Assembly (NCBI RefSeq): GCF_014873755.1
Contig: NZ_JADBEG010000001.1
Span: 9,026,501-9,090,500, forward strand
Direction: 5' to 3'
Origin: Amycolatopsis lexingtonensis
GTDB taxonomy: Bacteria > Actinomycetota > Actinomycetes > Mycobacteriales > Pseudonocardiaceae
Length of the DNA stretch: 64,000 nucleotides
The notes under the pieces are model-generated. The model was not told the DNA's origin. It saw only the letters and a program-made list of their open reading frames with translations, and ran no database searches. Of this stretch, positions 8,593 to 22,743 are shown piece by piece (positions within the stretch are counted from its first letter, which is position 1; every line of letters begins with the position of its first letter). A program made the position numbers and the translations under genes.

Positions 8593-9932
8593 ATGGACGG
8601 GCTGGTCAGAGGGTGCCCCGGGCTGCCCTGGGGCACGTCGGGGGCGCATGGGGCCTCCCCGACCGCAGTCACAAGGTATGAACCATCGGCGTTGCGAGGG
8701 GCCCACATGGCGTCGATGGCCCCCTTCGTCCGGTCCTCGGATTCAGGCATGAGGTGTGCGTAGTACCGCAGGGTGACGCTGGGGTTGTGGTGTCCGAGGT
8801 GCGCGGCCACGGCGACGATCGACTCTCGAGCATCCAGCAGCGTCGAGGCGTAGAAGTGCCTCAACGCGTGCTGACCGTTCATGCGATCCGCCGGGATCCC
8901 CGCAACCTCTTGGGCCCGCCGCCACGCGTAGGTGTTGAAGTTGTTGCGGTTGCAGGCTGTGCGCTCCCGCGTGGTGACGAAAAGCTTCACCTTGACCGGC
9001 TTGCCGTTGGGCTCTTCCCACGGCAAGGTCACCTCGACCGCCGGGAACTGCGCCAGGTACGCGGCCAGCTCATCGCGCACACGCGGCGGCAAGGGCACCT
9101 CACGGACCTTGCCGCCCTTCGGCAGTGCGAAGCACAGCCTGTTTCCGACGATCTTCACCTGACGCTGGACGTTGACCTTCCCGCGTAGCCAGTCGATGTC
9201 ATCGGGAGACAGCCCGAACGACTCGCCCTGGCGCAGCCCCAGACCGGAACCCATCGGAATGAACGGCTTGTAGCGGTCCGGTAGGGCCGCGTGCATCCCC
9301 ATCACCCAGTCCCGCGACCACGGGACGATCTTCCGTGAGTCGGGCTTAGGTGCCTTGACCGAGCGCAGCCGGCACGGGTTCTTACTGATCACCTCGTTGT
9401 CGACCGCGCAGTTCAGCATGGCCGACACGTGAGAGAACACAACGGCCTTAGTGGACTCGGCAAGCGGATCACCCTTGGCTGTCTTCACGTGAGACAGCGA
9501 CTTCAGCCAGTTCTGAATAGCGGCGGGTTTCTGCGCAGCCTTCAGTTGCAACCGCCACAGCGGGTACGGCTCGACGTACCGGCGGAGACGGTCCTCGATG
9601 TTCTGGAGCGTCAGCGGGTCAAGGGTCAGGTTCGCCAGCCACTCACTCTTGGCATAGGTGCTGAACAGGACTTCGCCGGCCCGCTGGTCGATGTAGGTAC
9701 CGCGGAGCTTGTCCGCCTCGACCAGGTTGACGTGTGCTTCAGCGTCGCCCTTCTTGCGATAGGACTTCTTTCGCTCAGCGCCGTCTGGCTCGCGCCAGCG
9801 GCACAGCCAGCGGAGGCCCTTGCCGTACCGGTCGGTCTTGATCATGACCGGCTTGTCGTCTTCGTCAAGCAGCGGCTTGCCGGTGGCTTCGTCCTTCGCC
9901 TGTGTCCACCAGCGATCTTCGACGCTAGCCAT
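8544..9932 (-). CDS. int: Tyrosine recombinase/integrase
   Basis: 462 residues. An N-terminal SAM-like DNA-binding part precedes the catalytic domain with Arg234 (GLRQGESFGL), His355-x-x-Arg358 (HALRHF), a histidine in HLGHHNPSVTL near 378-382 and nucleophile Tyr391 (LRYYAH). The ATG at 9932 overlaps the repressor gene end by 8 bp, so the two are cotranscribed. The last ten codons lie beyond the attachment core, antisense to nucS. Joining the core to the other element end, as in the excised circle, gives an immediate TGA after Asn452, so the integrase C-terminus differs between integrated and circular forms. Confidence 0.93.
   Translation of the reverse strand: MASVEDRWWTQAKDEATGKPLLDEDDKPVMIKTDRYGKGLRWLCRWREPDGAERKKSYRKKGDAEAHVNLVEADKLRGTYIDQRAGEVLFSTYAKSEWLANLTLDPLTLQNIEDRLRRYVEPYPLWRLQLKAAQKPAAIQNWLKSLSHVKTAKGDPLAESTKAVVFSHVSAMLNCAVDNEVISKNPCRLRSVKAPKPDSRKIVPWSRDWVMGMHAALPDRYKPFIPMGSGLGLRQGESFGLSPDDIDWLRGKVNVQRQVKIVGNRLCFALPKGGKVREVPLPPRVRDELAAYLAQFPAVEVTLPWEEPNGKPVKVKLFVTTRERTACNRNNFNTYAWRRAQEVAGIPADRMNGQHALRHFYASTLLDARESIVAVAAHLGHHNPSVTLRYYAHLMPESEDRTKGAIDAMWAPRNADGSYLVTAVGEAPCAPDVPQGSPGHPLTSPSIQNSLNSSDSMPRSSS
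8576..8592. repeat. attL core (17 bp)
   Basis: AGTTCAGGCTGTTCTGA, identical to 22522-22538. It is the last five codons plus stop of nucS, so the target gene is restored on integration. Confidence 0.92.
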
Positions 9933-10515
9933 CGGTCTCCCCTTCTGCCGGCGCTCTGAGTTGGCTCTCGGCGATCCACTGGAGGATGGGCACAACTCGC
10001 CCGGGTGAGAGGTCGTTCCTTCGGCAGAACGCGGAGAGCGCGGACCCAAGCCTGACCAGCTGATCCCAGTGCGGCCCGCCTTCGCGGGCGGTCAACTCGG
10101 GTTCGACGAGTGGGTTGTTGTCGGCCCTGAAGGTCAGCTTCCGCTGACGGTCGCGGTGACTGCGGGTCTCGTATGTGAGCGGCTCAAGGCCGTTGGCCCA
10201 CACCCATGCCTGCCGGGCGGTAGCGCTGATGTTGGGGGAGAGCTGCACCTCCGTGTCGTCTGCCTCTGGGGGGAGCAGGAGACGGTTAGGGGTCGCGTCC
10301 AGCGCTAGCGCAAGGGCAACCAGGTCGCTCACGTCTACGCGACGGGCTCCCTGCTCGACCTTGGTCACACCACTCGGTAGGAGTTTCTGTCCAACCCAGT
10401 CGGACATGCTCGCCGCGAGGTCGCGCACCTTCAGGCCGCGGATCTCCCGCAACTCCTTGACGTTGCGGGCCACCCGCTGGTCAGTTGTTTCCACATCGGA
10501 AACCTTATCACGCAT
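9925..10515 (-). CDS. XRE-family helix-turn-helix repressor of the element
   Basis: 196 residues. Residues 8-75 form a Cro/C1-type helix-turn-helix (RVARNVKELREIRGLKVRDL, then PSGVTKVEQGARRVDVSDL). The C-terminal 120 residues are unlike LexA-type peptidases, so SOS-type self-cleavage is not indicated. It is divergent from the Xis-like gene and upstream of the integrase, the usual place for an immunity repressor. The ATG at 10515 is chosen; an in-frame start at 10554 would add 13 residues and overlap a candidate operator. Confidence 0.8.
   Translation of the reverse strand: MRDKVSDVETTDQRVARNVKELREIRGLKVRDLAASMSDWVGQKLLPSGVTKVEQGARRVDVSDLVALALALDATPNRLLLPPEADDTEVQLSPNISATARQAWVWANGLEPLTYETRSHRDRQRKLTFRADNNPLVEPELTAREGGPHWDQLVRLGSALSAFCRRNDLSPGRVVPILQWIAESQLRAPAEGETDG
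10487..10503. promoter_or_regulatory. Candidate operator O1, GTTTCC-N5-GGAAAC
   Basis: A perfect inverted repeat (6-bp arms, 5-bp spacer) inside the first codons of the repressor gene. A near copy lies 60 bp away across the divergent promoter region, the arrangement expected of repressor operators. Confidence 0.5.
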
Positions 10516-10546
10516 CTTGCGAACGACGGAGACATGAGCTAATCTA

Positions 10547-10563
10547 GTTCCCAAGATGGAAAC
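10547..10563. promoter_or_regulatory. Candidate operator O2, GTTCCC-N5-GGAAAC
   Basis: Same spacing as O1 with one mismatch in the left arm. It sits 24 bases before the Xis-like gene and between the divergent starts. Confidence 0.5.
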
Positions 10564-10586
10564 GGACCGACCCGAAAGGCGAACAG

Positions 10587-10790
10587 GTGGACAAGACGCT
10601 GATGCCGGACCTGGCTACGCGGCGGGAGGTCGCTGACTACCTCAAGCTCAGCGCCAACACGCTGTCTCAGATGGCTTACGAGGGCCGCGGGCCCCGCTAC
10701 ATCCTGGTCGGGAACCGGGCGCGCTACGCCTGGGAAGACGTGAAGACCTGGCTCGAAAGCCAGACGGTTGGCGGACCGATCGCCGCCTGA
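10587..10790 (+). CDS. Excisionase-like helix-turn-helix protein
   Basis: 67 residues from a GTG. The protein is almost entirely a winged helix-turn-helix of the MerR/AlpA type: ATRREVADYLKLSANTLSQM, then RGPRYILVGNRARYAWEDVKTWLES. Size, basic charge and position beside the repressor and integrase fit an Xis-like directionality factor. It could instead be an activator of the rightward operon, which starts just downstream. Confidence 0.75.
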   Translation: MDKTLMPDLATRREVADYLKLSANTLSQMAYEGRGPRYILVGNRARYAWEDVKTWLESQTVGGPIAA

Positions 10791-10800
10791 AATCAAGGAA

Positions 10801-21912: not shown

Positions 21913-21976
21913 GGGTCGGAGTCCCTTTCCGATCAAGGTCCCCGCCGGGGTGTGCAACCACCCCTCGGGGACCGCC

Positions 21977-22186
21977 TTACTTTTCTCGAGGGGTGTATTG
22001 CCCTAGTGGCTCGCCGTGGTCCCCGAGCGTGCTCAGGAACAGTTCGTGTAGAGCCACCGAGAAGGCCGCTACGTAGGCGCGGTCAGCCTCGCCACTGGTC
22101 TGGTCGTACAGCCGCTGGTGCCCCTCCCGCTGCTGCCGCAGCTTCTCTGCGAAGTCAGCCAGGTCGTATACGTCTGAGTCGGTCAC
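21977..22186 (-). CDS. Hypothetical helical protein
   Basis: 69 residues, GTG start in a 4-bp overlap with the upstream small membrane gene. Helical, with YDLADFAEKLRQQREGHQRL and AYVAAFSVALHELFLSTLG. No family recognised. Same leftward operon as the DUF2637 gene. Confidence 0.6.
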   Translation of the reverse strand: MTDSDVYDLADFAEKLRQQREGHQRLYDQTSGEADRAYVAAFSVALHELFLSTLGDHGEPLGQYTPREK

Positions 22187-22362
22187 GACTTCACCTTTCG
22201 TGCTTCCAGGGCGACAAGGACAGAGCCTGCGAGGGCGACGAGGGCAACCACCCCGAAGGTGACCTTCTCGACGAGGTCGGGTCGAACGAAGGCGCCGATG
22301 ACGCAGAGGACAGCCGTGATGGCCAGCAACACAGCTGCAAGGGCGACGAGAGATCGCTTCAT
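22183..22362 (-). CDS. Small two-helix membrane protein
   Basis: 59 residues, starting MKRSLVALAAVLLAITAVLC. Two membrane helices (about 4-25 and 36-51) are separated by the charged RPDLVEKV loop, with a basic tail ALEARKVKS. The stop overlaps the next gene's GTG by 4 bp, which supports that it is real despite its size. First gene of the leftward module; possibly a holin-like or transfer-associated protein. Confidence 0.6.
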   Translation of the reverse strand: MKRSLVALAAVLLAITAVLCVIGAFVRPDLVEKVTFGVVALVALAGSVLVALEARKVKS

Positions 22363-22443
22363 GACCGGCGGTCGCAGTTGATCACTGGGCTGTTACTGGG
22401 GCACGCCGGGGGCGCGATAGCGCCATATGCCCCGGTAATCTCG

Positions 22444-22459
22444 CATACGCTCCCGTATG
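22444..22459. promoter_or_regulatory. Inverted repeat CATACG-CTCC-CGTATG near attR
   Basis: Perfect 6-bp arms, 80 bp upstream of the leftward operon and 63 bp from attR. Could be a regulator operator or a recombinase/Xis arm site. Confidence 0.35.
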
Positions 22460-22512
22460 ATCGAAATAGCCCCTGACCTGGGGTGGACGCGCTGAAGACA
22501 GGTAGGGTTTTC

Positions 22513-22743
22513 ATGGGCCTCAGTTCAGGCTGTTCTGAGGTGCGGCCCGGCCGGTACGTCCACTACAAGGGCGGGGAGTACGAGGTGCTGGGCGTGGCCC
22601 GGCACAGCGAGACCGAGGAAGAGCTCGTGGTGTACCGGGCCCTTTACGGTGAGCGCGGGTTGTGGGTGCGGCCGAAGGTGATGTTCACCGAGACGGTGGA
22701 GACCGGCGACGGCGTGGTGCCGCGGTTCCGCCGGGTGGACTGA
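22513..22743 (+). CDS. DUF1653 domain-containing protein (start remade by the insertion)
   Basis: 76 residues. The body, VRPGRYVHYKGGEYEVLGVA to VRPKVMFTETV, is a complete small DUF1653 domain; function unknown. Before insertion the reading frame would begin at GTG 22540, one base after the nucS stop, as a coupled nucS partner. The element now separates them, and an element-encoded ATG at 22513 with a GGTAGGG site six bases upstream gives a nine-residue new N-terminus (MGLSSGCSE). GTG 22540 lacks its own ribosome site in the present context. Confidence 0.75.
   Translation: MGLSSGCSEVRPGRYVHYKGGEYEVLGVARHSETEEELVVYRALYGERGLWVRPKVMFTETVETGDGVVPRFRRVD
22522..22538. repeat. attR core (17 bp)
   Basis: AGTTCAGGCTGTTCTGA, the second copy of the nucS 3' end. 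Chromosomal sequence resumes immediately after. Confidence 0.92.

Follow-up and report, generated by a model that had tools for sequence, protein, structure and literature searches.

Among the described phage satellites, the PLEs of Vibrio cholerae (phage-inducible chromosomal island-like elements; PLE1, PLE4 and PLE11) are the one experimental precedent for a satellite with its own tail tape measure protein (TMP), and according to the excerpted text of the study the satellite TMP replaces that of the helper phage, giving tails that are about 10 nm shorter (PMC12987554, Nature 2026). Satellite genomes are stated, in an excerpt of another source, to be about one third of the helper size (PMC10803314). 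Here we analysed a stretch of 64,000 nucleotides from Amycolatopsis lexingtonensis (contig NZ_JADBEG010000001.1, positions 9,026,501 to 9,090,500; hereafter the window, to which all positions refer), with an integrated element of 13,946 bp that encodes a TMP. We read this element, with a probability of roughly 0.62, as a helper-dependent phage satellite that puts its own TMP into the tail of its helper.

Like the PLEs as described in the excerpts of PMC12987554, the element would be an integrated satellite with its own TMP that borrows the rest of the tail, and distinct TMP types occur among its family members; in addition, one group of related islands (class B, see below) pairs the TMP with a tail assembly chaperone (TAC), as the PLEs do. 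The PLEs are compared here by description; the host differs, being an actinomycete, the tails are probably non-contractile, and no TAC or hub gene could be labelled in the window or in the other islands of class A. Moreover, homology between the TMPs of islands and of local prophages is clear, in contrast to the 20% identity that the same excerpts give for the TMPs of PLE11 and ICP1. Putative tmp genes are also mentioned for the capsid-forming phage-inducible chromosomal islands (cf-PICIs; Extended Data Fig. 10 legend of PMC12987554, as excerpted); however, cf-PICIs encode capsid, portal and terminases in the excerpted text of PMC10690885, and in our islands none of these was detected, save a head protease in one of them (G077a). 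With PICIs and SaPIs (Staphylococcus aureus pathogenicity islands) the element shares a size of about 14 kb, integrase, repressor, Xis and its own replication gene, and its HGG-motif protein in small-terminase position could serve packaging; it differs in having a TMP instead of a recognised capsid-redirecting or interference gene. MulchRoom and MiniFlayer are likewise satellites of actinomycetes (Streptomyces phages), but they encode capsid and packaging genes without a primase or replicase, and the term 'tape measure' is absent from the paper (PMC10690885). Finally, actinomycete integrative and conjugative elements (AICEs) have in common with the element an integrase, a replication gene and an SpdB-like protein, whereas their FtsK/SpoIIIE Tra protein and AICE-type Rep are missing from the window (PMC3218068, in excerpt).

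The element lies in the chromosome between perfect 17-bp direct repeats with the core AGTTCAGGCTGTTCTGA, present in identical copies as attL (8576..8592) and attR (22522..22538). The attL core corresponds to the last 17 bp of nucS including the stop codon, so that nucS remains intact, and attR is located ahead of a DUF1653 gene. Among 30 nucS loci fetched, both flanks were matched in seven, where the gap between nucS and the DUF1653 gene was 0 bp (four loci), 2 bp (one) or 9 bp (two); 22 of the others had no right-flank match and one was the window's own. As the two genes adjoin or nearly so in the matched relatives, the element is a clean insertion, and site-specific integration with its own integrase is supported by the att repeats, the empty site in relatives and the integrase gene. 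The G+C content per kb was 63-69% across 9-22 kb. The adjoining 8 kb on the left have 70-74% and the adjoining 4 kb on the right 66-69%, with mostly 69-76% farther out.

The original prediction, made from the window alone, had listed an integrase, a repressor, an Xis-like protein, a replication protein and its iterons, a protein with an HGG motif and a full-length TMP, and all of these were recovered with PHROG and Pfam profiles and through relatives. It had also stated that virion genes are missing. In agreement with this, PHROG and Pfam scans (E up to 1) of 20 of the 23 open reading frames (ORFs; o116, o69 and o59 were outside the scan) gave no large terminase (TerL), portal, capsid, tail tube, baseplate or tip, lysis or TraB gene; as regards TraB, the DUF2637 protein had just an FtsK_4TM match in Pfam (E 0.47). 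The sole structural or packaging name besides the TMP was terminase small subunit. It came up through phrog_57 for two helix-turn-helix (HTH) proteins, Xis (E 0.011) and the one encoded at 20020-20265 (E 0.003), and it also came up for o74 (E 0.24).

The TMP gene (16727..19924, forward strand, 1065 aa; the ORF opens at 16715) was identified by PHROG, tblastn, profile and context evidence. Taken alone, the window TMP gave a weak profile match (phrog_10780, 8.6e-4). In a scan of nine family members, the window's included, eight matched tape-measure PHROGs only and one had no match at E 0.01, and a 13-row profile of the family matched the solved tape measure 8zdo_S at 5.6e-8, the sole other match being a chance-like spike/inhibitor construct at 0.0066. 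With tblastn, short matches were obtained in 277 phage records, mostly of actinophages and best on annotated TMPs at residues 739-970; none of these records covers 80% of the window TMP. The prophage homologues stand in a same-strand run after head genes, directly ahead of large tail-type proteins, the tail labels being given by position. Judged through these relatives, the ORF at 16727..19924 is firmly a genuine tape measure.

Related loci were collected in 80 genomes of the genus, 28 of which match the TMP at 1e-10 (33 loci), and in 390 genomes of the family, genus included, where 26 genomes reach 1e-40, among them seven from other genera. Nine of the 29 genus loci that were read in context are islands. 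The window, G041a, G017a and G074a (class A) have a common plan at three sites; G051a, G029a and G075a (class B) have serine integrases, and att sites were searched for in these and not found; G077a (class C) has a length of 13.4 kb and is inserted in tRNA-Pro (L045/L046 joined, 12377-25816); and G007b occupies the same nucS site as the window. The TMP is paired with a TAC in all three class B islands (phrog_3860, best 2.8e-20). Outside the genus, G197a and G200a, from one genus, are islands inserted in tRNA-Tyr like G074a, four loci carry TerL or portal labels, and G291a was counted as uncertain and set aside as an island: it has a serine integrase, a TMP and a 375-aa ORF (L186:12884-14011) related to capsid maturation proteases, and no att site was found. 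G077a and G291a may represent a protease-plus-TMP type. Repeats of 17-43 bp bound eight of the 11 islands (window, G041a, G017a, G074a, G077a, G197a, G200a and G007b), and of those whose att sites were mapped, the six from Amycolatopsis measure 13.4-17.4 kb, G200a 26.2 kb and G197a 30.9 kb. The 20 genus loci that are not islands comprise 12 with TerL by PHROG, six with TerL by similarity to labelled ones, one on a 14-kb contig where portal and capsid are labelled, and G012a with tail genes only on a 23-kb contig; two of the four loci outside the context reading have TerL 8-11 kb away. When named genomes were scanned, 14 loci were obtained, of which ten have terminase, portal or capsid labels and four are islands: A. 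eburnea (G017a), A. sp. CA-126428 (G051a), A. thailandensis (G074a) and A. vancoresmycina (G077a).

The proteins of the relatives were scanned against PHROG after gene calling with our own caller (66 class A proteins, 62 of class B and 95 of G197a, G200a, G077a and G291a; the sets exclude TMPs that cross the boundary of a stretch). Families for large terminase, portal, capsid, tube, baseplate or lysis were absent from the best 25 of 32 families in class A, 25 of 32 in class B and 25 of 51 in the third set; exceptions to the lack of structural genes were the TAC of class B and the head maturation protease of G077a. One class B protein matches terminase small subunit (phrog_57, 2.5e-5), which may reflect the HTH only. 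The proteins of G007b were assessed by similarity only, and a phage-type primase/polymerase is present. Three TerL profiles run over 13 genomes (the 11 island hosts, G291 and G012) gave no match inside any island and none in G000, G041 and G291. Firm matches were found on other contigs or megabases off in seven island hosts (G007, G017, G029, G051, G074, G075 and G077), and marginal ones elsewhere in G197 and G200. The host genome of the window is without TerL by PF03354, phrog_2, phrog_9 and phrog_38, and thus has no resident helper of those types. A resident helper may therefore be present in seven of the 11 island hosts, and in none as far as these profiles show for the window's host. One protein of another locus, G021a, that had been supposed to be TerL turned out to be an anti-repressor.

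The TMPs of classes A and B are under purifying selection. The Nei-Gojobori omega (NG86) was 0.141 over 1,120 codons for G041a/G017a, and 0.375 (G051a/G075a) and 0.228 (G029a/G075a) in class B, while several small island genes had a higher omega than the TMP, up to 1.2. On a 35-row tree that includes 11 islands, well-supported branches force the label to change between island and prophage at least five times (six when G291a is counted as an island, five without it), and a single clade of island TMPs is rejected (p-AU 0.00013). Class B falls with prophage L101, the two also having related chaperones, G077a with contig L110, and G197a and G200a with G007b and prophage G068a; class A stands apart, its branching order relative to neighbouring prophages not being settled. 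Classes A and B came together in a 20-row tree (91/94) and are split in the 35-row tree, where a joint clade is not rejected (p 0.44), and the two are therefore not counted as surely separate captures. Under the tree model a single origin of the island TMPs is not tenable, and the number of captures is uncertain as TMPs recombine. Two pairs of islands have a shared chassis and different TMPs: G007b shares with the window the nucS site, the integrase (72%) and Xis (61%), and has a 19-bp repeat, a size of 15.3 kb and an att core changed in step with the window's, with a TMP of a different lineage; G074a and G200a have related integrases (66%) and HGG proteins (43%), and their att cores at tRNA-Tyr differ by one mismatch, again with TMPs of different lineages.

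Ahead of the TMP gene, on the same strand, we found a TATAAT box, noted by eye, and a candidate structured leader RNA (16334..16575, the RNA at about 16345-16575), preceded by a terminator-like hairpin that was likewise noted by eye. This leader of about 230 nt from the box to the TMP gene is about 72% conserved and occurs only in the window, G017a and G074a, island G041a having none. The folding z-scores were -2.1, -4.7 and -3.9, and the consensus has 67 pairs, 12 of which show changes on both sides in the three sequences; because the structure was derived from the same three sequences as were tested, the test favours it. None of 500 shuffles reached the observed value on four of five covariation measures, 11 of 500 did so on the fifth, and slid versions gave at most three such pairs. 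Rfam has no family for it (E up to 1; chance-like matches only), and it was absent from the phages and plasmids searched and, by exact pattern, from viral contigs. The leader model, run over 34 sources, gave three true matches and nothing better than E 0.068 in the other 31; the window contains a weak second match at 39922-39981 (E 0.047). According to the excerpted PLE study, the regulatory RNA SviR binds helper chaperone and hub transcripts (PMC12987554), and an analogy of the leader to SviR would be speculation.

In the scheme that we propose, the satellite would reside in nucS and be excised by Int and Xis upon helper infection or induction, replicate from its own O/iteron origin, as rep and iterons suggest, and, given the missing head genes, be packaged into helper phage heads. 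The helper would provide the head, TerL, the tube and tip of the tail, and lysis, and the satellite TMP would replace the helper's, forming a chimeric tail suited to its own delivery and hindering helper assembly. Homology, selection, the chaperone pairing of class B and the PLE precedent all point to such use of the TMP in the tail. The TMPs of different phage lineages in different islands would presumably be matched to different helpers. The original prediction had proposed that the TMP may redirect helper tail length or take over ejection. A consistent shortening is not borne out, as the TMPs of islands (826-1462 aa) and prophages (854-1467 aa) in the tree set overlap in length, and an exchange of rulers is the better fit.

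Several points weigh against this scheme. Transfer, excision and packaging are what we infer, and so are the building of the TMP into tails and any helper's identity. The TMP is the constant part of the islands, though these were found via TMP searches. The TMPs are mosaic and the tree inherits this mosaicism, and some label changes may reflect loss and not gain. The 31 TMP-related viral contigs include no island, and there is thus no virion-derived example; 22 have terminase, portal or capsid labels, eight of the other nine have prophage tail-region genes, and one is a same-strand run without matches. A shortened head maturation protease lies beside the TMP in G077a, and G291a also has a protease-like gene. 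FtsK-like genes occur in G197a and G200a, with an SpdB homologue in G200a. The PHROG and Pfam scans, which included no PICI-specific profile set, recognised no capsid-size, packaging-interference or PICI-defining gene. As for packaging redirection by the HGG protein, the gene is missing from seven of the 11 islands and such a role would not be general.

The TMP might instead be a weapon that competes for tube and tip proteins during helper infection, spoils helper tails and protects the host, the island travelling in unmodified helper particles or hardly being mobile. Eight of the 11 islands have no TAC that could be labelled, which would suit a weapon, and tail-assembly defences exist (PMC11364771, in excerpt). 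A decoy, however, need not remain full length under purifying selection, class B retains the chaperone together with the TMP, and in the excerpted PLE study deletion of tmp cuts satellite transduction by 96-99.9% (PMC12987554); we consider the weapon improbable. We would put slightly less trust still in decayed or non-autonomous AICEs that carry chance phage genes and are mobilised by the TraB of a resident AICE. The DUF2637/SpdB-like protein of the window and the combination of integrase and FtsK-like protein in G197a and G200a, the latter with its SpdB homologue, agree with such an origin, yet FtsK/TraB is missing from the window and was neither labelled nor listed in G041a, G017a, G074a, class B or G007b, and the FtsK and SpdB pair is not confined to islands, as it follows prophage genes in G203a and G057s. 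In addition, the replication gene is phage-like, with no RepSA, RepAM or Prim-Pol match in the Pfam and PHROG scans (RepSA is without its own Pfam model in the AICE paper), and an AICE offers no explanation for repeated TMP capture.

That the element is what remains of a full prophage after loss of the head and most tail genes appears very improbable. The phage-type families of integrase, repressor, rep, HGG and TMP and the head protease kept in G077a would be expected of a remnant. Nevertheless, the att repeats are intact, the four class A islands keep one plan at three sites, the TMP is under selection, and a separate class has serine integrases. The TMP is preceded by its own hairpin, promoter-like box and conserved RNA and not by tail genes, and no head/tail operon surrounds it in the islands, compared to 18 genus loci with TerL. 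The original prediction of a satellite, for which close relatives with flanking structural genes would have pointed to a remnant, was thus upheld by relatives that are discrete islands with att repeats.

FtsK-like genes, with a DUF2637/SpdB-like neighbour in three of four cases, were seen in G197a (L182/L188), G200a (L189/L183), G203a (L184/L192) and G057s (L073), i.e. both in islands and behind prophage genes, and the boundary between AICEs and phages is blurred here. The integrase-bearing element at locus G062c (L071, 6051-7264 and 9443-19150) carries SpdB, two protease-like ORFs and an FtsK-like gene; no TMP was found in it, and it may be a chassis that lacks a tape measure. An HTH regulator of 390-406 aa occurs in several islands and near prophages (L037:13574-14794, L036:2643-3821 and L071:12990-14201; phrog_5823 in the two scanned).

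The gene order of the element is integrase, repressor, Xis, four small ORFs, rep, five small ORFs, HGG, o96 and, on the opposite strand, an HTH gene, followed by the terminator-like hairpin, the leader RNA, the TMP and then, mostly on the opposite strand, an HTH gene, o66, o172, DUF2637, o69 and o59. The tyrosine integrase (8544..9932, reverse strand, 462 aa; phrog_1 2e-42, PF00589), the counterpart of that in G007b, reads through attL and has its stop codon beyond it, within nucS. It is followed by an HTH repressor-like protein (9925..10554, reverse; phrog_11503 8.7e-13), an Xis-like HTH_17 protein (10587..10790, forward; PF12728 1.3e-8, phrog_66) and the small ORFs o120, o84, o71 and o116 (10865..12037, forward), three of which have tblastn homologues in G041a/G017a and two in G074a. 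The replication initiation (O-like) protein (12228..13358, forward) matched phrog_1032 at 8.6e-16 on the longer ORF starting at 12126; its PHROG matches are phage O-like or initiation proteins, and Pfam gave HTH_36 only. Four iterons TGAACnnnnTGCACC lie inside the gene at 12599, 12622, 12653 and 12698 (span 12599-12712), and the in-gene repeats code for a repeated charged peptide (12585-12712). No such repeats were present in the rep genes of G041a and G074a, where no word of 9-11 bases occurs three times.

Downstream on the forward strand are o68, o90, o74, o107 and o193 (13355..14990), of which o90 and o74 (67-81% identical) and o193 are common to G041a/G017a, and the HGG-motif protein (15100..15651; phrog_3678 1.1e-10, 'unknown function'). 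The HGG gene is found in four islands (window, G074a, G197a and G200a) and within the genus otherwise in one prophage only. Its homologues directly upstream of TerL are from one phage and one Amycolatopsis prophage; in phage Montesquieu it lies 2.3 kb ahead of TerL, not adjoining, and the 16 proteins among the database matches listed, the query's own included, comprise four named ones, all 'hypothetical'. ORF o96 (15648..15938, forward) also follows HGG in G074a and has a homologue next to HGG in G200a. The HTH_17 protein beside the TMP (15935..16303, reverse) is a TMP neighbour in G041a/G017a as well. Beyond the TMP, all on the reverse strand, are a MerR/excisionase-like HTH protein (20020..20265; phrog_66 1.8e-4, MerR 0.0011 and below cut-off), o172 (20503..21021; common to G041a, G017a and G074a), a DUF2637 (SpdB-like) membrane protein (21196..21957; PF10935 7.1e-5), which has four hydrophobic segments as well as homologues in islands and behind prophage genes, and o69 and o59 (21977..22362), o69 being 61% identical to its counterpart in G041a/G017a.

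Literature searches of open-licence PMC papers (satellite with tape measure, actinobacterial or Streptomyces satellites, Amycolatopsis prophage satellites) gave no report of such islands among the matches listed, and the word stem 'actino' is absent from the excerpted text of the PLE paper (PMC12987554). That paper, which in 2026 described how one satellite family of one pathogen manipulates tail assembly, says that the benefit is still to be worked out. The islands offer an independent setting in soil actinomycetes, with the TMP mostly the sole structural gene seen by profiles. The broader proposal, for which we see the chances as evenly balanced, is that islands without capsid and TerL in the Amycolatopsis family have captured TMPs of different phage lineages several times onto a partly shared chassis, that the TMP may serve as an exchangeable key for matching a helper, that ruler replacement would be a convergent satellite strategy in two phyla, and that a conserved RNA may control or accompany the TMP in three islands. 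With natural pairs available that have the same site, related integrases and different TMPs, the islands allow asking directly what a replaced ruler is good for, be it DNA delivery, helper matching or interference.

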